Shown here in pieces: positions 3,760 to 33,407 of a stretch of DNA of 33,562 nt. Within the stretch, counting starts at the first letter, position 1. Every line of letters starts with the position of its first letter. Origin of the DNA: Actinomycetes bacterium (lineage in GTDB: Bacteria > Actinomycetota > Acidimicrobiia > Acidimicrobiales > SZUA-35); the NCBI GenBank assembly GCA_024280015.1, contig JAJRQY010000056.1, positions 1 to 33,562 on the forward strand, read 5' to 3'. Under the pieces are notes generated by a model. The model saw only the letters and a program-made list of their open reading frames with translations, did not search any database and was not told where the DNA came from. Both the position numbers and the translations under genes were made by a program.

Positions 3760-3814
3760 TCTGCCAACATAGATCCTCGGCGTCCTGCCTGAATGGGCGA
3801 ACAACCCCGAGAAC

Positions 3815-3832
3815 GTGGGTCCCGCGACCCAC
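3815..3832. promoter_or_regulatory. Inverted repeat in the arsR / secreted-protein divergent promoter region
   Basis: GTGGGTC-CCGC-GACCCAC, a perfect 7-bp inverted repeat with a 4-base centre. It lies in the 135-bp interval between the start of the secreted protein (3759, minus) and the ArsR start (3895, plus). It is the only long symmetric element there and so the best candidate operator for the ArsR protein. It could also be an RNA hairpin. Binding is inferred only from position and symmetry. Confidence 0.4.
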
Positions 3833-3894
3833 TCAGCGGGACCACACTAGACACCAGTTGGCCCGAAGCGTCCAGAAGCTGGCAAACTATCTCC

Positions 3895-4269
3895 ATGCCA
3901 ATCGAGACGAGCGACCCGAGCATGCCGTCACCAGATGAGGGTCCGGCCCTAGGAGAGCCGTGCTGTGAGCCCATCCTGGGCAGTGTCCTGACGGCTGAGG
4001 AGGCGGTCGAGCTGGCTGTCTTGTTGAAGGCCCTTGCCGACCCAGTCCGGCTTCGCCTAGTCAGTATTGTCGCTGGCTCGGGTGAGGCTTGCGCCTGTGA
4101 CTTCCCCAGTATTCTTGGCAAATCTCAGCCGACCGTCAGCCATCATCTCAGCTTGCTGGTTAATGCCGGAATTCTTGAGCGCGAGCAACGTGGCAAGTGG
4201 GCTTGGTTCAACGTGAACCCACGCCAAATGGAACTCATTCAAACGGCCATTGGGCCAGGTCTGTCCTAG
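3895..4269 (+). CDS. ArsR/SmtB family metal(loid)-responsive repressor
   Basis: A 124-residue winged-helix repressor. The core ALADPVRLRLVSIV leads to the metal-binding motif EACACDF (C66 and C68, the ArsR CxC signature in alpha-3). The recognition helix SQPTVSHHLSLL and the wing (REQRGKWAWFNV) follow. An N-terminal CC pair (C23-C24), common in actinobacterial arsenic regulators, may add a thiol ligand. The family releases DNA when As(III)/Sb(III) binds the Cys residues. The start is the ATG at 3895, without a strong ribosome site; an in-frame ATG at 3793 would add 34 residues with no family similarity. No arsenite pump, arsenate reductase or methyltransferase is visible in the window. The divergent partner is a secreted protein, so the regulated target is unclear. 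Confidence 0.88.
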   Translation: MPIETSDPSMPSPDEGPALGEPCCEPILGSVLTAEEAVELAVLLKALADPVRLRLVSIVAGSGEACACDFPSILGKSQPTVSHHLSLLVNAGILEREQRGKWAWFNVNPRQMELIQTAIGPGLS

Positions 4270-4287
4270 AACAACGAAACCCAACCG

Positions 4288-4331
4288 ACTGGAGTGCCAG
4301 CAGACCATTTGCGGCCTCCTGGCACTCCAGT
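4288..4331. terminator. Bidirectional hairpin between convergent arsR and surface-protein genes
   Basis: Perfect 13-bp arms ACTGGAGTGCCAG (4288-4300) and CTGGCACTCCAGT (4319-4331) enclose an 18-base loop. The hairpin sits in the 76-bp gap between the arsR stop (4269) and the surface-protein stop (4346). Position and symmetry fit a shared terminator for both strands. A U-run is absent, as is common in high-GC actinobacteria. Confidence 0.75.
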
Positions 4332-4345
4332 TGCGGTAGTAGGGA

Positions 4346-7300
4346 TTAGGCGACGGTGAGAGCCAGCTTGCGTCGACGACCAAGGAGAACTCCAGCGGTG
4401 CCAAGCAGCAGCAGCAGCAGCCCCGTGTTGACTATCCGACCCGAGTTTGAACCCGTCACGGCCAGCTGCGGTGGAACGTAGCCATAGTTGATGTCCAGCA
4501 GATTCTCACCCGGGGCCAGGCTCACGGCCACAACCAGATCACCGTTGCCATCCTTGGTGAACACATTCTTGTACTGCGACGGCACCGTGTTCGGCAACAA
4601 CACCAGGGTGTAGTCACCGGGCACCACATCGGTGAAGAGGTACTTGCCATTGGAGTCGGTCGTGGTAGTTGCAACGAGGACTCCAGCAGAATCACGCAGC
4701 TCAATCGAGACTCCCGCAATTCCAGCCTCACCAGGATCTACCTTGCCATCGCGGTCTGTATCGACCCAGACCGTTGACCCCACTGACGCACCTTGGACAA
4801 GGCCAATGTCAACATCTTTGTGTCCGCCATCAGGCAGGGTCACATTGACCGAATCTGGCGTAGAGGCAACCAGGCCCTCAGCGACCGTATTCTTGTTCAG
4901 GGTGACGGTGTAGTCACCTGCCGGCAGGTTCTCAAGCGACCATTGACCGTTGTCATCGGTCACCACGGTGTATGTCACGTCACCATCGGGGCCGTGCCAT
5001 ACAATGGTGACGGTGGCACCAGGGATACCAGTCTCGCCGGCATCCTGGATACCGTCACCATCGATGTCTGCCCACACACTGCGGCCAAGTGACGCAGTAC
5101 CAATGGGGCCAGTGGCGCGGTAGCCGAAGTCGGCAGTCTCGTGGAATGCTCCACCGGAAAGGCCAACGACTTCGGATGCGCTATCAGCGGTACCGGTTTC
5201 GTCATAGCTGGCAACCACCACGCCAGGCAAACCGTCGGTTACGGCGACGGCATAGTTCCCGTCGTGGAGATTGTCGAACAGGTAGGAACCATCGGCCGCA
5301 GTTGTGGTGGTGGTCACAACATCGTCGCCACCGCCAAGAACTCCGTCGGGTCCGTACCAGGTCAGGGTGACTTCAACGCCACCGAGCCCATTCTCTGCGG
5401 CATCCTGGACGCCATCGCCGTTCGTGTCCAGCCAGACATAGTTTCCAATACTGGAAGCCGCGACTTCGACCGAAACATTGTTGGACCGCAAGAACTGTTC
5501 CGCCGGCAAGGAGGTCGAGTCCAGAGTGAAGCGGTTGGTGTACAAATCACCGTCAGTGTTGTTGGAGGCATCAATGGTGTAGCTGGCCTTCATCCCTTGA
5601 CGGGGGTTGCCGTCTTGAGCAAGCGGATAGTTGGAGATGAACTTGACCGCAGTAGCTCCAGCGAAAGAGGTCGGACACGAAGGCGTACCAAAGGCTGCTT
5701 CCAAACACCAGTTGGAGGTGTTGTTGTCCGGGTCATAACCGACGGTCTCGGGAGCATCAGCGGTGTAGTACCAGGTTCCAATAGTGGCATGAGGGTCGCC
5801 GGCTCCGGGAACGGAATCATCCAGCCAGGTAATGCTTGGCTCACTTCGAAGTTCAAAGTTCCCGGTGTAGTTGGAGGCTGGAATTCGGGGTGAGTTTGAG
5901 CCAACACCGTCGCCGCTGCCGGACGTGAAGGAGAAGACGTCGATGACGGTTGGGGGATCAATCTCGAAGGTGGCGGCAAAGTTGGCCCAAGACAAGGAAT
6001 AAACCTGGTCCTGATCCAGCCCATCGAAGGAGGCATCCACGGCCTTGGATAGTTGCATGGAGCCGGTTTGCTGCAGGACTATGGTGTGCTCGTCGCTGCG
6101 CTCACTCAGAGCATTGACCACATTGTCGGCACCGATTTCTCCATAGTTGACCACCGATGTTCCGTCGGGGGCCAGCGAATTGGAGTCGGTGCAGATCACA
6201 ATTGGGGTGAAGACTGAGTTGGCTACCCGATCACCGAGGTTCCAGGTCAGGCGGGTGTAACCAGGGGCTACATTGCCGTCTCGGTCGGTGTTGGGTTCGA
6301 TGGTGTCGGGCGGCGTGCCGTCAGCGCGAGCAGCAGTACAGGTCGCGTTGTAGACGGAGTCCGGAGGTAGTACATCGACCACCTTGACGTTGAGGGCGGT
6401 GCCAGGAGGGGTGGCTGATGACTGCAAAGCAGGCAGGAGCTCCCACACGATCTCGTTGCCAGCAACCGTTGATCCGGTATTGCCAATGTCGGCGGCCGGA
6501 GTAATGCTGCGCTTCTCCAACCGGGCTCGCAGCCGCACCAGGGTGGCTCGGTCGCCATCAGCTGAAGCATTCTCAGGAGATGGCTGATAGTTCCGGCCGG
6601 TCCAGCCTTGGAAATAGGTGTCAGAGCGAACCATGGCGAAGTCGGCCATGACTGTTCCCTCGGGAATCACGGTTCCAGCATCAGGGCCGCCATTGAAGTT
6701 GTCCCGGGCAAGCAAGGGGACCACAAGCTGTAGCCGCTCGCCCGGAAGCAGTTGGATTCCGGGAAGAGGACGAGCACGTACCGCGTTCACGGCGTCAATA
6801 CCTCCGGGAACCGTCGTCGGGTCGGTATGCCAGCTAGCTGGCCCTCCAGCTGTACCGACATTTTCACAGCGCACGGCGCTTTGGGCGTCCCACGTACCAA
6901 GATAACGCGTGGTGGTATCGTCAAAGCCGCCCGAAATTGGGCTATCGCCAGCAAAATCGTAGTGGGCGTACTCCACCACGAAATCGGCAGGATCGATCCC
7001 GTTGCCGTTGCCAACATAGGCGAACTTGCCAGCAGTCGCTCCGGTATTACCAGCATCAGTGAGTTGCATGGTCGTGTTGTCAAACACGTCACAACTCTCA
7101 GGTTGGTCATGCGCCAGCGTGCCATTGTTGGTGTAGTACACAATCGAGGCGTGGGACTGGCCAGGCTCAAGCTCGCCATCGCCAGTCTGCCATCCGGCCT
7201 GGGAGGGCATCCAGGCAGTGCGGTTGCCAGCATCGTTAGCTCTACCAACCGCATACTTGGCGAAGGAGCCTCGAGTGGTCAATTGGAAGGTAGTTGGGCC

Positions 7301-15565: not shown

Positions 15566-17281
15566 CTACCGACCGGACTCATCAACAGTTCCGTCACGAA
15601 GAACAACGACGCCATACTCATCGCGAGCTGACTCAGCCGATATCAGGCCGTCGGCCAAGTCAGCAGCCACGGTTTGGGCCGGTCGTTGGTGAGGATCCCC
15701 AAGTCCAGCACCGCCAGGCATGGCTAACAGCAAGCGGTCATAGGCGGGAATCGACTGCTGTCCCTTTGATCGCAGCACCTGGCCAGATGCTAACTCCACG
15801 CTGCCCTTGGAACCGTCAAGCCCACCGTGGCGGCCACGAGGAGCGTTCTGAACACGTTCGAACATGGCCAACACATCAAAGGGAGCTCCCCCGTCACCGG
15901 CAAGTTCGATGACCTGGCCGAGCCCGCCCCGATAGTGGCCTGCTCCGCCGGAGTCTTCACGAAGTTCCTTGCGCCAGAACACGATGGGCACGATCGACTC
16001 GGTTGCTTCAACGGGAACACCCCGAACTCCACTGGGGAAACCGGTGGCACTGAGTCCATCCTTGGTTGGCCTGGCCCCTGCTCCCCCACTATTGAAATGG
16101 GTCATCTCGAACTCTGGCACATCTCCCTCGTAGTCCGTGTCGGTTGAGACCGAGGGACCACTGCGGAGCTGGATGTTCCAGAGCGAAGAAGAGCCCTCGG
16201 CTTGCACCCCTCCCTCGACAACTTGATCAAGGCAACCCAGGATCGTGTCAGGTAAGAGGTGGCCAATGATGTGCCTGGCCGCCACGGCGTAGGGTCGGGG
16301 CGCGTTGAGGATGCAGCCAACGGGCGCACTGAAGGTGAAGGGCTCGATCGATCCATAGTTATTGGGGATCTCGGGGGCAACGACGGCTTTGATTCCGTAG
16401 GTGGTGTAGGCCTTGGTGTAGTTGAGAACGACATTGATGCCATAGCTGGAAGCTGGCGAGGTTCCCGCATAGTCAATATGGATATTGTCCTTGCTGATGG
16501 TTAGGGCAGCAGCCAGGGTGACTGGCTTGTCGTAGCCGTCCATGGTTAGCTCGTTATGAAAGGTCCCATGGTCCAGTTCGTTGATCCTATCCAGGGTTGC
16601 TTGGCGAGATCGATCGATGACGAAGTTGGCTAACTCATCGAGGTCGCTGATGTCGAACTCTTCCATCATCGAGACCAGACGATTGGCAGCGATGTCATTG
16701 GCGGCGGCGAAGGAGTAGATGTCACCGATGACTTGGTCCGATTCTCGGACGTTCATCCGAACGATCTCCAACAAGGTCTCGTTGGCAACGCCTTCGGTGA
16801 ACAGGTGAAGGATCGGGATGTTGAGGCCTTCTTCATAGACCTGGCGGCCATCGGGGCTAAACCCTCGTCCGCCAATATCAACCACATGGCACGTGTTGGC
16901 CACAATGGCGACAGCGACTCCATCGAAGAAGACGGGGGTAGCGACGGTGATGTCGTGCTGATGTCCAGAAGCCAACCACGGATCATTGGTGATGTAGACG
17001 TCGCCGGGAAGCATCTGCTCCATTGGATACTTCTCGACGAAGTGCACCACGCAGGCAGCCAGGGCGTTGATGTGGCCGGGGGTACCAGTGATGGCTTGGG
17101 CCAGCATGCGACCTTCGCCGTCAAACACCGCGGCAGCAAGGTCACCGGCTTCTCGGACGCTGGTGGAGAAGGCCGTCCGGATCAGGGTCTGGGCTTGCTC
17201 TTCAACCACGGCAATCAGGCGGTTCCACATCACATGAAGATGGATTTGGGCCAGGGCACTGCTGGAGCCTGTCGAAGTCAT
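15566..17281 (-). CDS. hyuB: Hydantoinase B / 5-oxoprolinase beta-domain family protein
   Basis: A 571-residue HyuB-type subunit. The N-terminal REAGDLAAAVFDGEGRMLAQ and the TNDPWLASGHQHD motif (about residues 98-110, metal/active-site region) are characteristic of the family. So are the glycine-rich YRGGLGQV and MPGGAGLGDP segments near the C-terminus. HyuB partners with HyuA in ATP-dependent amide hydrolysis or carboxylation: N-methylhydantoin, 5-oxoproline, caprolactam, or acetophenone in relatives. The start is the ATG at 17281, overlapping the hyuA stop by 4 bp (ATGA), with AAGGGAG upstream inside hyuA. It is last in the five-gene minus-strand operon. Length is normal. The substrate cannot be decided from sequence. 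Confidence 0.92.
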   Translation of the reverse strand: MTSTGSSSALAQIHLHVMWNRLIAVVEEQAQTLIRTAFSTSVREAGDLAAAVFDGEGRMLAQAITGTPGHINALAACVVHFVEKYPMEQMLPGDVYITNDPWLASGHQHDITVATPVFFDGVAVAIVANTCHVVDIGGRGFSPDGRQVYEEGLNIPILHLFTEGVANETLLEIVRMNVRESDQVIGDIYSFAAANDIAANRLVSMMEEFDISDLDELANFVIDRSRQATLDRINELDHGTFHNELTMDGYDKPVTLAAALTISKDNIHIDYAGTSPASSYGINVVLNYTKAYTTYGIKAVVAPEIPNNYGSIEPFTFSAPVGCILNAPRPYAVAARHIIGHLLPDTILGCLDQVVEGGVQAEGSSSLWNIQLRSGPSVSTDTDYEGDVPEFEMTHFNSGGAGARPTKDGLSATGFPSGVRGVPVEATESIVPIVFWRKELREDSGGAGHYRGGLGQVIELAGDGGAPFDVLAMFERVQNAPRGRHGGLDGSKGSVELASGQVLRSKGQQSIPAYDRLLLAMPGGAGLGDPHQRPAQTVAADLADGLISAESARDEYGVVVLRDGTVDESGR

Positions 17282-19443
17282 TGGGATGCTCCCTTGTCGA
17301 GGTTGGCAGTTTCTAGGATGAGATGACCGTCGGGGTGAACATGAGCGACATAACGAGAGGTGATGACCGTGGCGGTGTTGGTTTCAACGACGACGGCGGG
17401 ACCAGGAATAACGGACCCCGGTTCGAGCGCAGTTCGTTCATAGACCGGAGCATCAACAGTTTCACCGGTTGAAGACTCGACCAGGCGACGAGTCCCGGCC
17501 ACCGTTACTTTCGGTGGCGGCTGGCTTGCATCACGGGGAACGGCGTCGGGTATCGCTTCGGGTTCGGTGCCAATGGTCAGAACCCAGCTCAGGATCTCGA
17601 TTTCCAGATTGGGAATGGAGCGCTCATACAACCGGTGATAGGAAGCTAGGAACGCCTCGGTTAATGCACCGGGGGTGTCGACGTCGAAACGGACAGCCTC
17701 GATCTTGATTGGCAGCTCAACCCCAACCTCATGACCCTGGCCGACATAGCGCATATAGGCCAGGCGAGTTTCCACCAGCGGGCGCCCGGCAGCACCGGGG
17801 ATGACAACGGCATTGGCCTCGACGCGCATCCCCTCCAGAAGCCGGTTGCAAGCGTTGGCGTCGAGTTCGCTCAGCCTCTGGTGGAAGCTTCGAGTGACTT
17901 CGTAGGCAACCGGCGCCCGAAGGAAACCGAGGGCAGAACCAACGCCAGCTCCAGGCGGGATGATCACCCTGTTCATGTCGAGCTTCTCGCCGATGCGAGC
18001 GGCATGCAACGGCGCGGCTCCGCCAAAGGCAATCAACGTCCGAGCCTCAACTACTTCACCTGACTCAATGGCGTGCACTCTGGCCGCGTTTGCCATGTTC
18101 TCGTCAACCATTTCGGCAACACCAAGCGCCGATTCGGTGGCATCCAACCCAAGCTTGGAACCAACAGCGTTGACCATTGCTTCCTCCGCTGCTGGACGGT
18201 TCAGGGTCATGGTGCCACCGGCGAAATTGTCCGGGTCGATCCGACCAAGCACAACATCAGCGTCGGTGACAGTTGGCTCGGTCCCTCCCTGGCCATAGGC
18301 CGCCGGGCCAGGCTCGGATCCGGCGCTTTCGGGTCCAACAGCAATTCGCCCCAGGGCATCAACATGGGCGATCGACCCACCACCAGCACCGATCTCGACC
18401 ATCTCGATGACCGGGATTCGTAGTGGGAGGCCGCTGCCTTTCATGAACCGGTAGATCCGAGCTACCTCGAAGTTCCGAGAGGTGTGAGGCATGCCATCGT
18501 CTATCAAGCACAGTTTGGCCGTCGTCCCTCCCATGTCATAGGAAACAACCTCATCGAGGCCGAGCTGCCTAGCGATGTGGCCAGCAAAGATTGCTCCTCC
18601 GGCTGGTCCAGATTCGACCAACCTCACCGGGAAGCGGCGGGCGGTTTCCAGAGTCGTAATGCCACCGCCGGACAACATCAAGAAGAGCGGGCAGTGGATC
18701 CCAACACGATGCAACTCTGATTCGAGTCGAGCAAGGTGACTGCTGATGAGCGGTTGCACATAGGCATTGGCGCAGGTGGTGGAAATCCGCTCGTACTCCC
18801 GCATCTCCGGAGACACCTCACTAGAGATGGAGATCTCGACATCGGGAAGGAGCTTGGCCAAGATGTCCCGAGTCTGGATCTCGTGACTGTCATTCACATA
18901 GCTATGGAGGAAGCCGATCGCCAGGCTCTGTACTTCAGCCTCTATCAGAATCGGGACGGTGGCGGCGACCGCTTCCACATCCAGATCCAGGAGGACTTCG
19001 CCTCGGACGTTCATCCGCTCCGGAATCGGCAGCCTGAGTCGTCGGGGGACCAAGGGTTCGGGAAGATCAATGTTGAGGTCGTACTGCTCGTAGCGACTCT
19101 CGTTACGAATGGCCAGGGTGTCTCGAAACCCCTCGGTGGTGATCAAAGCAATCGGGGCACCCTTGCGCTCAATCAACATATTGGTCGCCAGCGTTGTTCC
19201 GTACACCATGGTGCTGACCTGGTCGGCTGCAACTCCTGCACGATCCAAGACCTCGGCGATGCCGGAAATGACACCACGCTCTGGTGCATCATGAGTGGTA
19301 AGAGTCTTGACCACTGTCGAACGAGCTTGGGAACCGCGGCCTTGTTCCAACGCAATATCGGTAAAAGTTCCGCCAATATCGACGGCGAGGCGAGTCTCGG
19401 AAGTGGCAGCTTGGTCTGAGTTTGGGGACATGGTTGCTCTCAC
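17278..19443 (-). CDS. hyuA: Hydantoinase A / 5-oxoprolinase alpha-domain family protein
   Basis: A 721-residue ATP-binding subunit with the actin-like fold. The phosphate-1 loop is VDIGGTFTDI (residues 21-30). YGTTLATNMLIERKGA follows (about 81-96). The second nucleotide loop is YDMGGTTAK (302-310, Asp303), preceded by VESGPAGGAIFA. The C-terminal Hydantoinase_A domain is complete (ARIGEKLDMNRVIIPPGAG). It activates the amide carbonyl with ATP for HyuB. The start is GTG at 19443, overlapping the LysR stop by 4 bp; an ATG at 19431 is an alternative. The order LysR-hyuA-hyuB with end overlaps implies translational coupling and a stable A/B complex. Confidence 0.93.
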   Translation of the reverse strand: MRATMSPNSDQAATSETRLAVDIGGTFTDIALEQGRGSQARSTVVKTLTTHDAPERGVISGIAEVLDRAGVAADQVSTMVYGTTLATNMLIERKGAPIALITTEGFRDTLAIRNESRYEQYDLNIDLPEPLVPRRLRLPIPERMNVRGEVLLDLDVEAVAATVPILIEAEVQSLAIGFLHSYVNDSHEIQTRDILAKLLPDVEISISSEVSPEMREYERISTTCANAYVQPLISSHLARLESELHRVGIHCPLFLMLSGGGITTLETARRFPVRLVESGPAGGAIFAGHIARQLGLDEVVSYDMGGTTAKLCLIDDGMPHTSRNFEVARIYRFMKGSGLPLRIPVIEMVEIGAGGGSIAHVDALGRIAVGPESAGSEPGPAAYGQGGTEPTVTDADVVLGRIDPDNFAGGTMTLNRPAAEEAMVNAVGSKLGLDATESALGVAEMVDENMANAARVHAIESGEVVEARTLIAFGGAAPLHAARIGEKLDMNRVIIPPGAGVGSALGFLRAPVAYEVTRSFHQRLSELDANACNRLLEGMRVEANAVVIPGAAGRPLVETRLAYMRYVGQGHEVGVELPIKIEAVRFDVDTPGALTEAFLASYHRLYERSIPNLEIEILSWVLTIGTEPEAIPDAVPRDASQPPPKVTVAGTRRLVESSTGETVDAPVYERTALEPGSVIPGPAVVVETNTATVITSRYVAHVHPDGHLILETANLDKGASQ

Positions 19444-20366
19444 ACGTTGGAGATGAATGTTGGGGACGACTCTTGAGCGGATAGCTGGAGCTGGTTGAGC
19501 ACTTCTTGTTCAATCGGGCGGGCCGCAGAAGAGGTCCTGGTGATGGCAAGAACTTCGCGATTGATTGGATCGCCAGCTACTGGCCGAATGGCAACACCTG
19601 GCGGTGGTGACGAAGTGGAGAATGGGGGATGCAACGCGACTCCAAATCCATCGGCAACATAGTGCTGCATCAGGAAGATGTCATCAGTCTCCCACCGAAT
19701 GTTGGGTTCAAAGCCTGCTTGGCGACAACAGTTACGAACCGTATTGCTGTAGGCAACAAATGCTGGTGAACAGATCCATGATGCTTCGGAAAGTTCGGAC
19801 AATTCCAATGGCCCCTCTGGCAAGTTCATGGACTCAGGAACGAAGAGTTGCATGGTTTCATGGCCCAACGATGTTGCTGTCAGCCCGTTGGGAACAAGCC
19901 ATGGCTCATCATCAAAGACATCAACGACCGCAAGGTCAACCTGCTGACTTTGGAGTTGATGGATGCTCGTGTCTGGGTCCTGATCGATCACTGACATCTG
20001 TAACTGTGGGTGGGTGTGCTGCAACATACGGACGGCATGTCGCACCAGGGAAAGGGCGGCGGTTGGGATTGAGGAAACTCGGTAAGCCCCAGAGGTAACA
20101 GCAAGCTGTTCCTCCATCATCGCCCCGGCGCTCTCCAAGGACCGAACCATCTGACCTGCTCGATCGGCAAGGGACTGCCCAGTAGAAGTAAGAGCAACCC
20201 CTCGTCCTTGGGCTTGGAGCAGTTCAGTTCCTACCGTTTCTTCCAGACTCGCGATCTGTTGGGACACCGCAGACGGGGTAACACCAAGATGGTGGGCCGC
20301 CGCCGCCATGGATCCGTGCTGAGAAACAAGCCAGAGGGAGCGCATTCGTTCGAAGTTGAGTTCCAT
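19440..20366 (-). CDS. LysR family transcriptional regulator embedded in the hyu operon
   Basis: 308 residues from the ATG at 20366; the reading frame is open further upstream, but that part overlaps the oxidase gene and lacks family similarity. The N-terminal winged helix reads MRSLWLVSQHGSMAAAAHHLGVTPSAVSQQIASLE, the standard LysR recognition region. A linker helix and a two-lobe ligand domain (about 90-300, with SSIPTAALSLV and IAPVAGDP-like strands) follow. It is unusual to find LysR as a middle gene transcribed with its presumed targets; most are divergent. It lies 28 bp after the oxidase stop and overlaps hyuA. The likely operator is the palindrome at 22482-22504, upstream of the first gene. 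The effector is presumably the pathway substrate or an intermediate. Confidence 0.9.
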   Translation of the reverse strand: MELNFERMRSLWLVSQHGSMAAAAHHLGVTPSAVSQQIASLEETVGTELLQAQGRGVALTSTGQSLADRAGQMVRSLESAGAMMEEQLAVTSGAYRVSSIPTAALSLVRHAVRMLQHTHPQLQMSVIDQDPDTSIHQLQSQQVDLAVVDVFDDEPWLVPNGLTATSLGHETMQLFVPESMNLPEGPLELSELSEASWICSPAFVAYSNTVRNCCRQAGFEPNIRWETDDIFLMQHYVADGFGVALHPPFSTSSPPPGVAIRPVAGDPINREVLAITRTSSAARPIEQEVLNQLQLSAQESSPTFISNV

Positions 20367-20394
20367 AGTGATTACTTGTCCGATCCCTGTCTCA

Positions 20395-21612
20395 TCAGAT
20401 GATGTTGACTTCCAGGACTGGCTCATTGCGCAGTACACGCTCATAGCCAAGAGGCGAGAGATCAAGGGTCTGGTAGGAACCGTGCACGATCAGCTCGGCC
20501 AGCCCTCGGCCAACCGCGGCGGCCTGCTGGAGGCCATGGCCACTGAAGCCGCTACAGAAGTAGAACTCATCAACCGGGGTCGAGCCAACGACCATATTGT
20601 GATCCAGTGTGTTGTAGGCGTAGTGACCAGCCCACGATGATGTGAGGCTGATCTGATCGAATTGTGGAATCCGATTGGCCAACGATGGCCAAATGATCTC
20701 CTCAAATTCGCTGGTCCGAACCCGCAGGTCGTCGGGGTCAACGGCAACATCAGTAGGGGGAACCGTGCCCGCCAGGTATTGGGCACCTTCACGTCGAACG
20801 TGAACGCCAGTGGTGTCGATGGTGAGCGGGAACACCTGATCAATCGGTGTGCGGCAATCGAAGACGAAGGTGCTTCGAATTCGGGGTTCGACCGGCAGAT
20901 CAAGGCCAACCATGGCTGCCACTTCGTTGGCCCGCGGTCCGGCGCAGTTGATGACCCGTTGGCAACTGATGGTCTCCCCCGAGGCCAACTGGACTTCCTT
21001 CATGGATCCGGCGCCTTGACTAATTCCTGTTGCCTTGTCAACAATGTAGGTCGCACCATTGGCCCGTGCTCTCTGGCGAAAACCGTTCATGAAGGCCCAC
21101 GGGTCCAGGGTTCCTTCTCGGGCCCCGAGGCTGGCAGAAACTAAGCCGTCGGCATTTAGATAGGGAAATGCTGCTTCAAGTTCTGTTGGATCCAATAGTC
21201 GGACATCAGCACCACAAGACTTCTGCACTTCATGGCTGGCTTGATACCCGGCCAGCCGCTGTTGGTCGATGAGGAAGAGGTAGCCAGTGTCCCGGAATCC
21301 AAGGTCGGGAGCTTCCCCCTCAACCTGCACACGATCAAACCAGTCATCAACGAAATCCAGCCCGAATTGTGAGACCGACACATTCAGGGGGGTCGAGAAT
21401 TGCTGGCGAAAACTTCCGCCAGAACGAGGTGTCGACGCCTTCTCATAGGTTGGATCTGGCTCGATGACGCACACGGTCTCGTCGTAGTCTGGGTGTTCAG
21501 TGAGGAAGTAGGCGGCAGCACTTCCCATGACAGCACCGCCGATGATGATGGTGTCAACGTGTCGCTGACTGTGTTGCTGACTGATTGGTTGGCTGCGTTG
21601 CTGACTACTCAT
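20395..21612 (-). CDS. FAD-dependent amine/amino-acid oxidoreductase (DAO / sarcosine oxidase-like)
   Basis: 405 residues from the ATG at 21612. An N-terminal tail of four SQxx repeats (residues 3-18) precedes the FAD dinucleotide fold TIIIGGAVMGSAAAYFL, where the third position of GxGxxG is Ala, as seen in many DAO relatives. RSGGSFRQQFSTP and the C-terminal FCSGFSGHGLQQAAAVGRGLAELI close the FAD site. The family oxidises N-methyl or secondary amino acids (sarcosine, dimethylglycine, N-methylproline) to imines, or acts as a membrane-linked dehydrogenase. It starts 10 bp after the SDR stop. In an operon with HyuAB, the natural reading is oxidation of an amino acid released from a cyclic amide such as a hydantoin. 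The exact substrate is unknown. Confidence 0.9.
   Translation of the reverse strand: MSSQQRSQPISQQHSQRHVDTIIIGGAVMGSAAAYFLTEHPDYDETVCVIEPDPTYEKASTPRSGGSFRQQFSTPLNVSVSQFGLDFVDDWFDRVQVEGEAPDLGFRDTGYLFLIDQQRLAGYQASHEVQKSCGADVRLLDPTELEAAFPYLNADGLVSASLGAREGTLDPWAFMNGFRQRARANGATYIVDKATGISQGAGSMKEVQLASGETISCQRVINCAGPRANEVAAMVGLDLPVEPRIRSTFVFDCRTPIDQVFPLTIDTTGVHVRREGAQYLAGTVPPTDVAVDPDDLRVRTSEFEEIIWPSLANRIPQFDQISLTSSWAGHYAYNTLDHNMVVGSTPVDEFYFCSGFSGHGLQQAAAVGRGLAELIVHGSYQTLDLSPLGYERVLRNEPVLEVNII
21559..21606 (-). repeat. Four degenerate 12-bp tandem repeats at the oxidase N-terminus
   Basis: Four 12-bp units, of which three end in GCTGACT on the plus strand, encode SQQR, SQPI, SQQH and SQRH directly after the initiator Met-Ser. 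The unit is a multiple of three. The repeat makes a flexible polar tail in front of the FAD fold and lies at the SDR-oxidase junction. Confidence 0.8.
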
Positions 21613-21622
21613 GGCACGACGC

Positions 21623-22441
21623 TCAGGCGAGTCGTCCGACCTTGGGAAAGTCTTTGGGTGGCATGATGTCAACGGTGGCCGAGCGCTGCTGGGCCAACAT
21701 GCCACCGTCTACTCGCAACACGTCTCCTGACACATAGCTGGCATCATCGCTGGCCAGGAATACCGCCGGTCCGGCCATGTCGGATGGCTCACCAATGCGG
21801 CTCATTGGAACGTTCTCGCCGCGCAGGATTCGGTCTTGCAGATCTAGTCCCATGGTGTCAATGGATCCCGGCATCAAGGCATTGACCCGGATGCCGTAGG
21901 GCCCAAGGTCAAGCGCTAGTGCCCGCGTGAAGGCCTCAATACCCCCCTTGGAGGCGTCATATGAGGTGAACGCTCGATGTGCCCTGGTTGCCCCACCCGA
22001 CGACATATTGATGATGACGCCTTCACCAGCTTCGACCATGATCTTGGCCACCCGGTGGCAGGTCAGGAACGTTCCAGTGAGGTTGACGTCGATGATGCGA
22101 CGCCACCAGGCTTCATCCGCTTCAAGGAAGTGCAGCATTGGCGAGACCAGGCCAGCATTGTTCAACAAGATGTCGATCTTGCCGTAGGTCTCCATGGTGA
22201 GATCGACCATGGCCCCGACCTGTTCAGCATTAGAAACATCGGCGGGACCAGCCAGTGCTGTTTGCCCGTTGGCCACAATGTCGGCCGCTACCGATTGGGC
22301 TGTCTTGGTGTCGACGTCATTAACAACAACGCTCGCTCCCTCGGCAGCGAAACGTCGGGCGATCGCTTCTCCAATACCTTTTCCAGCTCCGGTCACAATG
22401 GCGACCTTGCCTGCCAGACGGGGTGAAGGTGCTATTTCCAT
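21623..22441 (-). CDS. Short-chain dehydrogenase/reductase (classical SDR)
   Basis: A 272-residue Rossmann-fold oxidoreductase. The cofactor motif TGAGKGIG (residues 17-24) and an Asp at the end of beta-2 (NDVD) favour NAD(H) over NADP. NNAG is at 94-97, Asn120 is the catalytic Asn, Ser147/148 the catalytic Ser, and the Tyr161-x3-Lys165 pair is in SYDASKGG. The C-terminal VSGDVLRVDGG is standard for the FabG-like branch. The last 20 residues (SATVDIMPPKDFPKVGRLA) extend beyond the usual end. The ATG at 22441 is preceded by AGGA at 7-8 bases. It is the first gene of the minus-strand SDR-oxidase-LysR-hyuA-hyuB operon and presumably oxidises or reduces a hydroxy/keto intermediate of the same pathway. 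Confidence 0.93.
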   Translation of the reverse strand: MEIAPSPRLAGKVAIVTGAGKGIGEAIARRFAAEGASVVVNDVDTKTAQSVAADIVANGQTALAGPADVSNAEQVGAMVDLTMETYGKIDILLNNAGLVSPMLHFLEADEAWWRRIIDVNLTGTFLTCHRVAKIMVEAGEGVIINMSSGGATRAHRAFTSYDASKGGIEAFTRALALDLGPYGIRVNALMPGSIDTMGLDLQDRILRGENVPMSRIGEPSDMAGPAVFLASDDASYVSGDVLRVDGGMLAQQRSATVDIMPPKDFPKVGRLA

Positions 22442-28341: not shown

Positions 28342-30621
28342 ATGACGACGACTGAGATACCCCGCTTCGTCCGAGCCGATGGCCCGGACAAGGTGACGGG
28401 TTCTGGGCGCTACACCGCCGACCTGACCCTCACTGGCATGCTGGCTGCCAAGTTCAAGTATTCAGGTATCTCCCACGGGCGAATCACCAGGCTGGACGTG
28501 ACGGCGGCCAGGGAAATGGCTGGCGTGCTTGCCGTCCTGACCGATGCCGACGTACCAGACGTTCACTACGACCCGCAGATCAAGGACCGGACCTTGTTCG
28601 CCCGCGACATCGTGCGCTTTGAGGGTGAGATCGTGGCCGCTGTTGCCGCTCTCACACCCGAGATTGCCGAAGCCGCCGTCGCCGCCATCATTGTTGAGTA
28701 CGAAGAACTCACTCCCATCCTCGATCCGGAAGCGGCCATGGACAAAAGCTCTCCTCTGGTGCATGAGGATTGGGAATCCTACGAAGCAGGAAGTTGGCTG
28801 GTCCGGTCGGGCAACACTGCCTCGTTCTCATCCTTGGAGCGTGGTGACGTTGATGCTGGCCTCGCCGAAGCTGACCAGATTATCTCCAGTCGCTATGTTG
28901 CCGATGGGTCTCACGCTGCGCCAATCGAGCCTCGGGCCGTTGTGGCCCAGTGGGAAGGTAACAAGGTCACCATCTGGACCTCGACCCAGGTTCCCTTCGA
29001 TGCTCGAGCCGGAGTGTGCGAAACCCTGCAACTGCCAACCAACCGGGTCCGGGTCATCGTGCCTCATCTCGGTGGCGGTTTTGGCGGCAAGTGCGGCTTC
29101 CACTTCGAGGCCCACGTTGCTGCCCTTGCCAGAACAGCCGGGCGCCCGGTGCGATTGGTCTTCAGCCGCGAAGAAGAGTTCACCATCCCTGACCGTCGCC
29201 GTGAAGGAATCGTGGTTGAACTCACCACCGGCGTACGCAAGGACGGGTCCATCACTGCCCGCAAAGCCAATGTCGTTATCGACTGCGGGGCCTACATTGC
29301 CGACACCGCCTTCTTCCCTCAACTAGCGGCAATGCACGCGGTTGGGCCATACCTAGTCCCCAACCTGATGGTCGAATCCCAGATCGTCTACACCAATCAT
29401 CAGCCATCCGGATCGGTTCGGGCCCCCACTGCACCTCAGGTTTGTTGGGCCCTGGAGTCACACATTGACGAGGTGGCCAAAGCAATCAACATGGACCCCG
29501 TCAAGTTCCGACTCAAGAACGCCGTCGACACCGGCATGGTCGGGCCCCTCGGTCAAACCTATGAAGAGATCGGCCTACGACGCTGCATCCAGCAAGCAAC
29601 CGAAGCCGCCGGTTACGGACAAGAGCTACCGGAGAACGAAGCAATTGGTGTTGCCATTGGTTGGTGGCCAAGCTTCGCTTCGGCGTCTGGCTCCTACGTG
29701 AAGCTTGATGATGACGGTGCAGGCCAGATCATCACCGGCGCCCAAGAATGCGGCACCGGCGCGGTCATGACCCTGCGCCAATTGGCTGCTGACGAACTCG
29801 GCATGAAACCCGAAGACTTCGAGATCATCTACCAGGACACCGCCACTGGCCCCTATGACATGGGGGCCACCGGTTCCCAAACCCTGCTCAACAACGGCCG
29901 AGCAGTGGTCGAGGCTTCACAACAAATCGCCGAGCAACTACGGGAGCTGGCCGCTGACCGCTTGGAAGCTGCGCCGGCCGACATTGTGCTGGCTGATGGC
30001 AAGGCTCAGGTTGCGGGCTCGCCGGAGTCTGCAGTACCCCTTTCCAAACTGGCCGCCATCGCCGGAAGCGGCAAGTTGCTGCTGGGCCACGGCTCTGGTT
30101 CTCCCCCAGTAGCCCCACCCATTGTTGGAGCGAATTGCGTCGGCGATCAGGGCATGGCGTCGTGGGTCGGCCCACAATTCTCTTGCCACGCCGTTCGGCT
30201 TCGATTGGATCCGGAAACGGGAGTCACCCGAGTCATTAGTGTGCATGCCGATCACGACTCTGGAACCATCATCAACCCGATGGGGGCGCATGGCCAGGTC
30301 GAAGGAGCCATCATCATGGGCATTGGCCAGGCCCTGACCGAGGGCACTCGATATGACGAGACCGGCAAGCAGATGAACACGAGCTTGCTGGAATACAAGC
30401 TGCAAACCGCAGCCGACTCCCCTTCCATCCACACCCAGTTCGTTGAAGTCTTCACCGAGAATGCTGGACCCCATGGGGCGAAGGGGCTGGCGGAGGCACC
30501 GAACATCGCCACCGCTGCCGCGGTCGCCAACGGACTGGCCAAGCTGATTGGATCACCGATGAGACAGCTACCAATGACGGCCGAACGAGTATGGGACACG
30601 ATCTCTGAAGGCGGGTCGTGA
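28342..30621 (+). CDS. Xanthine-dehydrogenase-family molybdopterin-binding (large) subunit
   Basis: A 759-residue Mo subunit. The start ATG at 28342 has GAGGAA 6 bases upstream. The N-terminal Ald_Xan_dh_C-type domain (about 15-130) is followed by the molybdopterin domain: GGGFGGK (244-250), the substrate-side loop GSVRAPTAPQ (about 357-366), TGAQECGTGA, MGATGSQT, and the catalytic Glu718 in KGLAEAP. Where CoxL of CO dehydrogenase carries AYRCSFR, this protein has SVRAPTAPQ. CO oxidation is therefore not supported; hydroxylation of an aldehyde, N-heterocycle or aromatic CoA ester is more likely. It is first in a tight operon with FAD and 2Fe-2S subunits; gene order L-M-S differs from the classical cox M-S-L order. 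Confidence 0.93.
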   Translation: MTTTEIPRFVRADGPDKVTGSGRYTADLTLTGMLAAKFKYSGISHGRITRLDVTAAREMAGVLAVLTDADVPDVHYDPQIKDRTLFARDIVRFEGEIVAAVAALTPEIAEAAVAAIIVEYEELTPILDPEAAMDKSSPLVHEDWESYEAGSWLVRSGNTASFSSLERGDVDAGLAEADQIISSRYVADGSHAAPIEPRAVVAQWEGNKVTIWTSTQVPFDARAGVCETLQLPTNRVRVIVPHLGGGFGGKCGFHFEAHVAALARTAGRPVRLVFSREEEFTIPDRRREGIVVELTTGVRKDGSITARKANVVIDCGAYIADTAFFPQLAAMHAVGPYLVPNLMVESQIVYTNHQPSGSVRAPTAPQVCWALESHIDEVAKAINMDPVKFRLKNAVDTGMVGPLGQTYEEIGLRRCIQQATEAAGYGQELPENEAIGVAIGWWPSFASASGSYVKLDDDGAGQIITGAQECGTGAVMTLRQLAADELGMKPEDFEIIYQDTATGPYDMGATGSQTLLNNGRAVVEASQQIAEQLRELAADRLEAAPADIVLADGKAQVAGSPESAVPLSKLAAIAGSGKLLLGHGSGSPPVAPPIVGANCVGDQGMASWVGPQFSCHAVRLRLDPETGVTRVISVHADHDSGTIINPMGAHGQVEGAIIMGIGQALTEGTRYDETGKQMNTSLLEYKLQTAADSPSIHTQFVEVFTENAGPHGAKGLAEAPNIATAAAVANGLAKLIGSPMRQLPMTAERVWDTISEGGS

Positions 30622-31583
30622 GAATGACGACTCATCTACTGGTCGCGACCACTCTTGACGAAGCCTTGGCAGCCATGGCCAACGGTGCTCGACCTATTGC
30701 CGGAGGTACCGATCTGGTGGTTGGCGCTCGAGTCGGAAAGGCCCCACTCCCTACCGAGTTAGTTGCCATCGACCGGCTTGATGAGCTGGACATCGTTGGA
30801 ATGGTTCCCGGCGGATCAGATGACCCAACACCGCTTCTCTTTGTTGGGGCCATGGTCAGCCACGCCACCATCATGAATCATCCACTACTTGCCGCCAGCT
30901 ACAGCGGCTTAGCTGATGCCAGTGCGTTGGTCGGTTCTCCCTCAACCCGCAATGTTGGCACCATCGGCGGAAACGTGATGAACGCATCACCGGCCATGGA
31001 TACCGGCGCACCATTGCTGGCGATGGGCGCAATGGCGGTGTTGCAGTCCGTGTCGGGGTCTCGAACTGTGCCGCTGGCTGAACTGTGGACCGGTCCGGGA
31101 ACCACATCTGCTGGGCCCGACGAGCTATGTGTCGCCATCCTGATTCCCCGGCGAATGGGGGAAGAAGGCAGTGCCTATGTACGGCTTGAATACCGCCGGG
31201 CTATGGAGATTGCCGTTGTTGGCGCCGGTGCTGCGGTGACCTTGAATGATGACGGCACGGTGGCCAAGGCTGCGGTTGCCCTCACCGCGGTTGGGCCCAC
31301 CATCTTGGCCTTGACGGGTTTGGAGGAACTCCTGATCGGTACTCCATTGGATGATTTATCATTGTCAGCAGTGGCAATGTTGGCCTCGGAGCAGGCCTCA
31401 CCAATTTCAGATCTTCGGGCCAGCGACAAGTACCGTCGCCACACCGTTGGCGTCATGGCAAAGAGGGCGCTGGAAGCAGCAGGAAGGCGGGCGGCCGGGG
31501 AGACGATCGCAATCCCGGTGAACCGAGCCGAAGGCATCGGGGCGGCACGAAACGCGGCGGCACAAAACGGAGCGGCGAAATGA
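30618..31583 (+). CDS. FAD-binding (medium) subunit of the molybdenum hydroxylase
   Basis: 321 residues from GTG at 30618, overlapping the large-subunit stop by 4 bp (GTGA); an ATG at 30624 is an equally good start. FAD motifs are clear: PIAGGTDLVVGAR (about 26-38, pyrophosphate loop) and TRNVGTIGGNVMNASPAMDT (about 112-131, the second FAD loop). A CO_deh_flav_C domain (about 190-295) with YRRAMEIAVVGAGAAV follows. It passes electrons from the 2Fe-2S centres to the final acceptor. The C-terminal tail is a 3x5-residue Ala/Asn-rich repeat encoded by 15-bp tandem units, beyond the normal domain end. Confidence 0.92.
   Translation: MRMTTHLLVATTLDEALAAMANGARPIAGGTDLVVGARVGKAPLPTELVAIDRLDELDIVGMVPGGSDDPTPLLFVGAMVSHATIMNHPLLAASYSGLADASALVGSPSTRNVGTIGGNVMNASPAMDTGAPLLAMGAMAVLQSVSGSRTVPLAELWTGPGTTSAGPDELCVAILIPRRMGEEGSAYVRLEYRRAMEIAVVGAGAAVTLNDDGTVAKAAVALTAVGPTILALTGLEELLIGTPLDDLSLSAVAMLASEQASPISDLRASDKYRRHTVGVMAKRALEAAGRRAAGETIAIPVNRAEGIGAARNAAAQNGAAK
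31539..31583 (+). repeat. Three degenerate 15-bp tandem repeats at the FAD-subunit C-terminus
   Basis: Units 31539-31553, 31554-31568 and 31569-31583 share G-GGCGGCAC-AAAC; the third is diverged and ends in the stop codon. They encode GAARN, AAAQN and GAAK. The last unit contains the ATGA overlap with the 2Fe-2S subunit gene. Confidence 0.85.
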
Positions 31584-32089
31584 GCAATCAAGAAACGAGC
31601 AAGAGCGTGTTCCTGAACGTGAATGGGGTCAGCTATCCCGTGACCATCGATGGTGGACGCAATCTCTTGAGCGTCTTACGTGGCGAGATCGGCCTCACCG
31701 GAACCAAGGAAGGTTGTGATGATTGTGAGTGCGGGGCCTGCATGGTCTTGGTGGATGGCCAACCGGTCAACTCCTGCTCCTACCTAGCGGCGCAAACTCA
31801 GGGCCGAGAGATCACAACCATCGAAGGCGTCGCCCCCAGTCCAGAGGAAATGGATCCCCTGCAAACCAACATCTTGGAGGCCGGAGGAGTGCAATGTGGT
31901 TTCTGCACACCCGGAATGATCCTGTCGGCTAGGGCGCTGTTGGAACGGACCCCCCATCCCTCCGAGGAAGAGGTTCGAATCGGCCTCTCCGGCAATCTCT
32001 GTCGCTGTACCGGCTACGCCAGAATCGTCGAGGCCGTGCAACGAACGGCAGCGGGAGCGAAAACGGCCACGGGAGATACAGGCCAATGA
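31580..32089 (+). CDS. 2Fe-2S (small) subunit of the molybdenum hydroxylase
   Basis: 169 residues. The plant-type ferredoxin domain holds the first cluster with C46-x4-C51-x2-C54 and C66. An extra Cys49 lies inside the loop (GCDDCECGAC) where relatives usually have Gly, Glu or Gln. The helical domain holds the second cluster (CGFCTPG and CRCTGY). The ATG at 31580 overlaps the FAD-subunit stop (ATGA) and has no need of its own ribosome site. The C-terminal Ala/Thr/Gly tail is again repeat-like. It relays electrons between Mo and FAD. Its stop overlaps the AlaX start by 4 bp. Confidence 0.93.
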   Translation: MSNQETSKSVFLNVNGVSYPVTIDGGRNLLSVLRGEIGLTGTKEGCDDCECGACMVLVDGQPVNSCSYLAAQTQGREITTIEGVAPSPEEMDPLQTNILEAGGVQCGFCTPGMILSARALLERTPHPSEEEVRIGLSGNLCRCTGYARIVEAVQRTAAGAKTATGDTGQ

Positions 32090-32838
32090 CCGATCTGCTC
32101 TTCCTTCATGACGCGTATCGAAACGAGTTCGAGGCGGTGGTCACCGAGGTGGGTGAGTCTACTTCTGACCGGGTCGAGATTGCCCTGGACCAGACCTGCT
32201 TCTATCCAACGGGTGGGGGCCAGCCGCATGACACTGGCACGCTCATGATCGAGGGAACTAGCCATGAGGTCAGCAAGGTTCGAAAGTCTGGCGACCTGGT
32301 TTGGCACACCATCAGCTTTCCTGAGAACAAGACCGACCTGTCCGGCCAATCACCATCGATCGGCGACAAGGTCACAGCCAAGGTCGACTGGGAACGCCGC
32401 CACCAACTCATGCGGACCCATACCGCCATGCACATCTTGTGTGGAGTGATCTGGAATGAATACGGCAAGGCGGTTACCGGAGGAAACATGGAACCGCTCA
32501 GTGCCAGGATGGACTTCGAGTTCGATCCGTTGCCCGAAGGTTTTGGTCAGCGTGTTCAGGATCTGGTCAACGAGGAGATCGCCAAGAACCTTCCCATCGA
32601 GGTCTCCTTCTTGCCCCGAGACACCGCACTGGCCGATGATGACCTGATCCGGACCAAGGTCAATCTCATCCCCGACTTCGTGACCGAGATCCGGGTGGTC
32701 GATATTGTGGGGCTCGACAAGCAAGCCGACGGTGGAACCCATGTGCGGGCAACCGGCGAGGTCGGCACTTTTGAAGTGGTGAAAACCCAATCCAAGGGCA
32801 AGGGCAACAAGCGAGTCCGAATCGCCCTTCACGACTAG
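32086..32838 (+). CDS. AlaX-type alanyl-tRNA editing protein
   Basis: 250 residues, matching the AlaX-M class (AlaRS beta-barrel plus editing domain, no glycine-rich C-Ala). FYPTGGGQPHDTG (about 39-51) marks the N-terminal barrel. RTHTAMHIL supplies the zinc HxxxH (His112, His116). The second zinc motif, normally CxxxH, reads D215-GGTH219, so Asp replaces Cys. I recall Asp at this place in some bacterial AlaX proteins but cannot check it. AlaX hydrolyses Ser-tRNA(Ala) or Gly-tRNA(Ala) mischarged by AlaRS. It is coupled by ATGA to a molybdenum-hydroxylase operon, an unexpected context. A role in hydrolysing another thioester- or ester-linked product of that pathway is conceivable but speculative. 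Confidence 0.88.
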   Translation: MTDLLFLHDAYRNEFEAVVTEVGESTSDRVEIALDQTCFYPTGGGQPHDTGTLMIEGTSHEVSKVRKSGDLVWHTISFPENKTDLSGQSPSIGDKVTAKVDWERRHQLMRTHTAMHILCGVIWNEYGKAVTGGNMEPLSARMDFEFDPLPEGFGQRVQDLVNEEIAKNLPIEVSFLPRDTALADDDLIRTKVNLIPDFVTEIRVVDIVGLDKQADGGTHVRATGEVGTFEVVKTQSKGKGNKRVRIALHD

Positions 32839-32849
32839 CAGGATCACCA

Positions 32850-33407
32850 ATGAATTCTCCGGCGGCAAGAGATCGTTCGTCCCTTTTCCCACTCCTCTAT
32901 CAGTCCACCGCAGGGACCTTCTTGGTTCTAGTGACGACTGGGGTATTCCTGTTCTTCTTCTATCAGCCTTCGGCGGCAGCATCCTGGGGCGACCTGTACG
33001 ACATCTCTGATACTGGCTCAATCAGCCAGACCGTCCAGATAGTGCATCGCTGGTCCAGCTTCTTGCTGGTCCTCCTAGGTCTGGGAACAGCGATGGCTGG
33101 TCTGGCCCAACGGGGCTTGTCGCTCGGGCGTCGCTTGGGGCTCCTGACCCTCCCCGTCTTGGCTGGGGCTGGTTTGTTCTCTGGCCTTCTTCTTCCTTGG
33201 GAGCAGATGGCTCTCTATGCGGTAGAGGTGGGGACAAACATGCAGGGCTACCTCGTTGTCTTCGACGACAGGGTGAAATTCTTCCTCGGCGACCAGGGTG
33301 TAACCGGTACCGGATCCATGGCATGGTATCTGGGGGCCCACCTCGCCATCAGCCTGCTCATAGCCCTGGTCCTCGCTCTCGCCAGAGCGGTGACTACGCG
33401 TACGTAA
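32850..33407 (+). CDS. Small cytochrome-b-like membrane protein with a single haem-ligand pair
   Basis: 185 residues, with a ribosome site AGGA about 7 bases before the ATG at 32850. Four hydrophobic segments are visible (about 18-38, 63-85, 96-115, 158-180). The second to fourth align with helices B-D of cytochrome b. His66 (QIVHRW) matches the first His of helix B, GLLLPWEQMAL matches the conserved LPWGQMS turn, and His164 (GAHLAI) matches the first His of helix D; His66-His164 spacing is 98, against 99 in bovine cytochrome b. The second His of each helix (14 residues later) is Thr80 and Ala178, so only one b-type haem (the bL-like site) can be ligated. It is 11 bp after alaX and may be the membrane acceptor for the hydroxylase. 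Function is inferred. Confidence 0.7.
   Translation: MNSPAARDRSSLFPLLYQSTAGTFLVLVTTGVFLFFFYQPSAAASWGDLYDISDTGSISQTVQIVHRWSSFLLVLLGLGTAMAGLAQRGLSLGRRLGLLTLPVLAGAGLFSGLLLPWEQMALYAVEVGTNMQGYLVVFDDRVKFFLGDQGVTGTGSMAWYLGAHLAISLLIALVLALARAVTTRT

Follow-up and report, generated by a model that had tools for sequence, protein, structure and literature searches.

A family of short cytochrome b6-like proteins predicted to keep only the outer haem site

Cytochrome b is a two-haem wire across the membrane. The locus analysed here raises the question of what a relative with a single pair of haem ligands could be, and with which partner it might exchange electrons. The window is the whole of contig G000:C86, 33,562 nt long, and it ends 155 nt past the stop codon of the gene in question, so that the operon may run on beyond it. 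The gene follows those of a molybdenum hydroxylase. A preliminary description had read its product as a reduced, single-haem module that could take electrons from this cytoplasmic enzyme. The genes concerned are the following:

28342..30621, forward strand: molybdopterin subunit of the Mo-hydroxylase (PF02738, PF20256, PF01315)
30618..31583, forward strand: FAD subunit of the Mo-hydroxylase (PF00941, PF03450)
31580..32089, forward strand: 2Fe-2S subunit of the Mo-hydroxylase (PF01799, PF00111)
32086..32838, forward strand: AlaX-like alanyl-tRNA editing protein, 11 nt upstream of the monohaem gene (PF07973, PF01411)
32850..33407, forward strand: predicted monohaem cytochrome-b-like protein, 185 aa (open reading frame translation, Pfam, PDB sequence match)

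The three Mo-hydroxylase genes and the AlaX-like gene overlap by 4 nt, and the monohaem gene follows after the 11-nt gap. With the Mo-hydroxylase and AlaX genes as its neighbours, the gene has no Rieske or subunit IV gene beside it, and the remaining parts of a Qo site (PEWY/ef loop, Rieske) are not encoded there. Elsewhere in the window, positions 15566-21705 encode hydantoinase A and B, close to which lie genes for a LysR-type regulator and a DAO-type oxidoreductase.

On sequence grounds, the window protein is a relative of cytochrome b6. It passes the curated Pfam cut-off of PF00033 (Cytochrome_B) narrowly, with 27.5 bits against 27.2, and its best PDB sequence match is the cytochrome b6 chain 6rqf_I (E 1.5e-9, residues 12-177). 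Helices B to D, which the preliminary description had recognised, are covered by this match, and helix A can now be added to them; the LPW-EQM turn is present at residues 115-120, and the protein does end right after helix D. This ending is not the unusual part, because cytochrome b6 chains in the PDB, at 215 aa, are short as well. A weak match of residues 22-77 to DUF4405 (PF14358; 23.8 bits, below the 26.7 cut-off) is not specific, as full b6 paralogues score 25.7 and 24.1 bits with the same profile. The NCBIfam models NF040969 (ExtP) and NF002990 (cytochrome b6) give sub-threshold scores of 61.7 and 51.2 bits, and their cut-offs of 290 and 325 bits rule out membership in either. AF2 models of the window protein are of low confidence, with a mean pLDDT of 55.9 in both runs and a pTM of 0.34 with 13 b6 relatives and 0.32 alone; Foldseek with the low-confidence model of the 13-relative run returned no match at E < 0.001. 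The same genome also carries two full two-haem b6 paralogues, L002 on contig C96 and L003 on C3, which are 42% and 31% identical to the window protein over the shared part. They have two His pairs each, whereas the window protein has one, and they adjoin Rieske-, subunit-IV- and ferredoxin-like genes (read by eye), which the window gene does not.

The window protein contains only two histidines, H66 and H164. As the preliminary description stated, they are the first His of helix B and the first His of helix D. The positions that matter for haem binding, with counts over the 15 family members described below, are these:

33045..33047, forward strand: codon of His66 in helix B, predicted outer-haem (bL) ligand, invariant in 15/15 (translation, alignment)
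33087..33089, forward strand: Thr80, at the position of the inner-haem ligand of helix B in two-haem relatives, His in 0/15 (alignment)
33192..33209, forward strand: LPWEQM turn, residues 115-120, end of helix C and start of the C-D surface loop (translation, alignment)
33339..33341, forward strand: codon of His164 in helix D, predicted outer-haem (bL) ligand, invariant in 15/15 (translation, alignment)
33381..33386, forward strand: Ala178-Arg179, at the position of the inner-haem ligand of helix D in two-haem relatives, His in 0/15 (alignment)

Thr80 and Ala178 indeed stand 14 residues after the two histidines, as had been noted; the lost ligand position of helix D is nevertheless better placed at Arg179 (neither it nor Ala178 is His), because 42 of the 43 other homologues examined have the spacing HX14H in this helix, with the second ligand 15 residues after the first. 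Those 42 homologues keep both ligand pairs, and the 43rd is frame-broken and shows the helix-B pair. In the family, the two bis-His sites of b6-type proteins (HX13H in helix B, HX14H in helix D) are reduced to one pair in 15/15, with both first histidines kept in every member and no His at the inner-haem positions of either helix, by alignment as well as by ungapped counting. This 15/15 pattern is a definition rather than a test, since members were picked by their ligand pattern, and the weight of the evidence thus rests on other conservation. Among 150 fully filled columns of the 15 members (mean pairwise identity 0.27), P40, H66, G133 and H164 are invariant, and the chance of two pre-named columns falling in this set of four is 5e-4.

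The family of short relatives comprises at least 15 intact genes in at least 14 genomes of one class, the window gene included, and thus at least 14 relatives. A contig scan with the window protein alone found no relative. A scan with a three-member alignment kept 80 of 518 loci, of which 13 served as b6 references, 8 in the fifteen-member tree; the b6 relatives from the contig scan come mostly from Acidimicrobiia and Acidimicrobiales MAGs, an origin that sets the window's genome within this group or close to it. From 39 genomes of the same taxonomic family, searches with the window protein and a three-row profile recovered an intact short protein each in G000, G001 and G014, and a decayed copy in G026. 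The class sample of 129 genomes added G469 and G052 among the matches listed. With a five-row profile and matches listed down to about E 3e-12, the order sample of 198 genomes added at least G041, G229, G135, G043 (two genes), G066, G054, G187, G199 and G061, and it holds at least 13 intact genes in at least 12 genomes. In the phylum sample of 149 genomes, a member was seen in the window's own genome only, among the matches examined; the lower-scoring matches examined there were two-haem or, in two cases (L174, L176), frame-broken. Matches in G048, G116 and G157 proved to be b6 cut by contig ends and were rejected, and those in G154 and G074, also cut by contig ends, stand outside the member count. 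Three copies are decayed: L148 3375-3995 (G026), in which the helix-B His has become Arg and the frame is lost; L185 120-752 (G104), with three stops; and L203 at about 6559-6927 (G205), which retains the C-terminal half only.

These counts are lower bounds. The best full b6 outscored the left-out short member in 18/18 profile trials (3 + 15), so that score-ranked lists hide short members in the 298-, 129- and 198-genome samples; in these samples, high-scoring frames of more than about 250 aa were mostly counted as two-haem by length, and open-frame length is an unreliable filter because the frames of some members approach 300 aa. Ten of the 15 members pass the PF00033 cut-off, and those of G066, G054, G187, G199 and G061 are unmatched, while a five-member family profile matches PDB cytochrome b6 at E 5e-21. 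Searching 397 genomes at the DNA level for GTNM plus an Arg or Gln codon beginning with C gave G000, G001 and one chance match in G007; G014, in which the Arg codon has A as its first base, escaped this pattern, which therefore says nothing about absence. In the trees, the short proteins fall on one side of a branch that separates them from two-haem b6, with support of 98/94 for five members and 100/99 for fifteen. A single origin of the short family is therefore likely from these trees, not proved, because the family branches are long and the five-member tree carries a joined-long-branch warning.

Which of the two haem sites has been kept? We take H198 and H212 of Rhodobacter cytochrome b to be the first and the second His of helix D. 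According to the accessible part of PMC4807273, H198 ligates bL and H212 ligates bH, which means that the family would have kept the outer (bL) site and lost the inner (bH) one. The rest of the protein is consistent with this assignment. The b6 crop was divided halfway along each helix. At well-conserved columns, with the ligands left out, the fraction identical to the b6 consensus is 0.27-0.58 in the outer half and 0.06-0.24 in the inner half, in the same direction in 15/15 members. P values for this contrast run from 0.039 (G469) to 5e-8 (one of the G043 genes) and are only a guide, because columns are not independent. Seven diverged two-haem controls gave outer/inner ratios of 0.71-1.28, computed with the helix-D column excluded at +14 instead of +15 (the 15 members were computed with the correct column), and the lone control with P < 0.05 leans the opposite way. 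All 22 fully filled columns in which at least 11 of 15 residues are identical lie in the outer half as defined here. Two glycines, which we presume to be haem neighbours, behave likewise in helix A, where the one by the outer haem is kept in 14/15 and its inner-haem counterpart in 2/15; the presumed inner-haem Gly of helix C is G in 3/15, at a position made ambiguous by indels.

As read from the alignments, b6-like sequence is retained mainly in the outer half of the bundle and in the C-D surface loop. The family shares with cytochrome b6 (PF00033; 6rqf_I, 1vf5_A) helices A-D, the first His of helices B and D, the Gly of helices A and C near the outer haem, the YxP and LPW(D/E)Q turns and the C-D loop; unlike cytochrome b6, it has no inner-haem ligands, mostly no inner-haem Gly in helix A (the 2/15 above) and no b6-like inner loops. 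In mycobacterial complex III, as described in the accessible part of PMC8523172, the QP-site entrance near heme bL and the Rieske cluster is built by helices C and F together with the cd1 helix. The monohaem family has kept the end of helix C and the C-D loop, a loop that lies at the Qo (QP) pocket in complex III.

The loop charges point in the same direction. Summed over the 15 members, K+R against D+E is 50/21 in the N-terminus, 36/5 in the B-C loop and 43/10 in the C-terminus, and 21/32 in the A-B and 41/65 in the C-D loop; single members vary, for example G041, in which the A-B loop is net positive. These charges follow the positive-inside rule and thus place the His pair outside, as in cytochrome b, and they suggest a protein of four helices with both ends inside. 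From the ligands, a single b haem held by two His is predicted close to the outer face. Taking these lines together, we consider with strong confidence, at a probability of about 0.85, that the window protein and its relatives are monohaem, outer-side (bL-only) derivatives of two-haem cytochrome b6.

We propose, with moderate confidence and at slightly better than even odds, that the job of such a protein is that of a one-electron relay at the outer face. One bis-His b haem would sit near this face beside half of a quinol pocket, with no electron wire across the membrane, and electrons would both come and go on the outer side, because there is no known path inward without bH. The electron source may be menaquinol or a semiquinone, or a neighbouring bL haem of a cytochrome b complex, and the exchange may be with an outer-side partner, for example a periplasmic acceptor. 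As no gene recurs among the neighbours of the relatives, the partner is to be sought in the respiratory core with greater likelihood than in the Mo-hydroxylase. For each relative, two to six neighbouring ORFs were chosen for Pfam, the downstream side of G001 lying beyond the contig end. No Rieske or subunit IV gene is among these ORFs, and their assignments are as follows:

G001: PIN domain, SDR
G014: isochorismatase, HrpB
G469: AMP ligase, luciferase-like
G052: ABC ATPase and aminotransferase V (read as SufC/SufS-like), glycogen-debranching-type enzyme
G041: amidohydrolase, aldehyde dehydrogenase
G229: DUF488, CbtA
G135: member L195 4832-5431, with two ABC-transporter genes between nuoD and nuoE/nuoF
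G043: sigma factor, M23 peptidase and EF-Ts for one gene; SMC and MoxR for the other
G066: TyrRS, MPG
G054: MscS-type
G187: GNAT
G199: NuoEF-like and formate-dehydrogenase-like genes
G061: threonine dehydratase

In the G199 genome, the formate-dehydrogenase-like set at L201 264-4538 has an unusual order: a molybdopterin part comes first and a NuoE-F fusion second, followed by a gene of its own for the Fe-S N-terminal part.

The idea with which the locus was first described, that the window protein accepts electrons at the membrane from the adjacent cytoplasmic Mo-hydroxylase and passes them on to quinone, draws on the tight packing of the window genes on one strand, with their 4-nt overlaps and the 11-nt gap. 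It could also draw on the G135 member between nuoD and nuoE/F and on the G199 member, about 0.7 kb past a group of formate-dehydrogenase-like genes that includes a molybdopterin subunit; these two cases, uncorrected for background frequency, speak to some extent for a link to soluble dehydrogenases. However, the adjacency is not conserved: among the two to six selected neighbours of each relative, a xanthine-oxidase-type Mo-hydroxylase gene was found in 0/14. The gene that directly adjoins the window gene is alaX, and we know of no redox role for AlaX. Furthermore, the haem site that was kept is the outer one, by loop charges and by the ligand assignment of PMC4807273 (its accessible part), and this makes it hard to see how a cytoplasmic hydroxylase would pass electrons to it directly. 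The single-haem, reduced cytochrome b of the preliminary description has thus stood, now with 15 members that share the same ligands, while the cytoplasmic hydroxylase as its electron source has gained no support; a tie to the neighbouring molybdenum enzyme is probably absent, and we regard this acceptor role as very unlikely. It is even harder to believe that the gene is a functionless, decaying copy of cytochrome b6 or an assembly error, which we consider very improbable. The distribution is sporadic and there are decayed copies in G026, G104 and G205, so that a patchy family with three decayed copies probably has a dispensable function; nevertheless, 15 reading frames from 14 genomes are intact and have both His in common, at a mean identity of 27%, and in several members the GC pattern of the codons is of the coding type.

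The main alternative to the outer-face relay is a sensor, in which the single haem would report the state of the quinone pool or of oxygen to a regulatory partner. A patchy and dispensable distribution is what sensors often have, and the frames of G061, G054 and G199 run ahead of helix A (in G061 by up to ~125 aa, with starts not fixed); the extension in G061 (L202 10334-11287) resembles a membrane anti-sigma factor by eye, with no Pfam match at E 0.01. In most members, however, no clear extra domain is visible by eye (starts again not fixed), the single sigma-factor gene among the neighbours scanned lies two genes from a G043 member on the opposite strand, and a plain sensor would not need the outer-side pocket surface that has been kept. 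We judge a sensor unlikely. A more specific possibility, which we hold to be somewhat less probable still, is that the protein works on a full cytochrome b complex as a natural bH-less protomer or accessory subunit, exchanging electrons from bL to bL and acting as a brake or bypass. There is a precedent for such exchange: in the accessible part of PMC4330944, bL-bL transfer between monomers is shown in cross-inactivated bc1 hybrids, with electrons crossing from bL to bL where one half carries the bH knockout (H212N). The lack of a recurring neighbour gene would be expected for a partner of a core complex, and a full two-haem cytochrome b is present in 14/14 member genomes (PF00033). The 20 longer cytochrome b frames of these genomes all have both pairs (17 by motif script, 3 by reading; a large fusion protein excluded). 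However, full cytochrome b is common in these lineages, where the profile matched at least 114 of the 129 class-sample genomes, so the co-occurrence says little. A b6-type full frame occurs in 12/14 genomes, and in G041 and G229 the only long cytochrome b is bc1-type, which, judging from these assemblies, rules out a fixed b6 partner in those two genomes; if a cytochrome b complex is the partner, it is not always of the b6 type.

Returning to the outer-face relay, one way to picture it is as natural 'half cytochromes b', in which the outer haem and half of a quinol-oxidation pocket, in or beside a respiratory cytochrome b complex, would shuttle electrons one at a time between quinol and an acceptor on the outer side, with no transfer across the membrane, as a built-in bypass or brake of the Q-cycle; this picture is speculative, and we would give it rather long odds. 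Within the terms used, no description of natural monohaem cytochrome b6 proteins was found in the open-access literature. The engineered Rhodobacter H212N mutant has in common with the family that bL is kept and the bH/Qi branch is disabled (PMC4330944 and PMC4807273, in their accessible parts); it is a point mutant made in the laboratory in a full bc1 complex, whereas the family consists of natural, short and separate proteins. A family that has probably lost the inner haem and stays intact in scattered lineages would be the natural counterpart of the bH-knockouts engineered for the study of the Q-cycle, and may make it possible to study the outer haem and half a Qo pocket on their own. For annotation, the profile name 'Cytochrome_B' can cover proteins without the ligands of the Q-cycle.

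Elsewhere in the window's genome, L146 (G000:C67, reverse strand 1991-4510) encodes a protein of ~840 aa that, by eye, joins a two-haem cytochrome b-like part to 4Fe-4S motifs and a C-terminal CxxCH motif of the cytochrome c type. Proteins similar to this fusion, again with motifs read by eye, are L147, L149 and L150.
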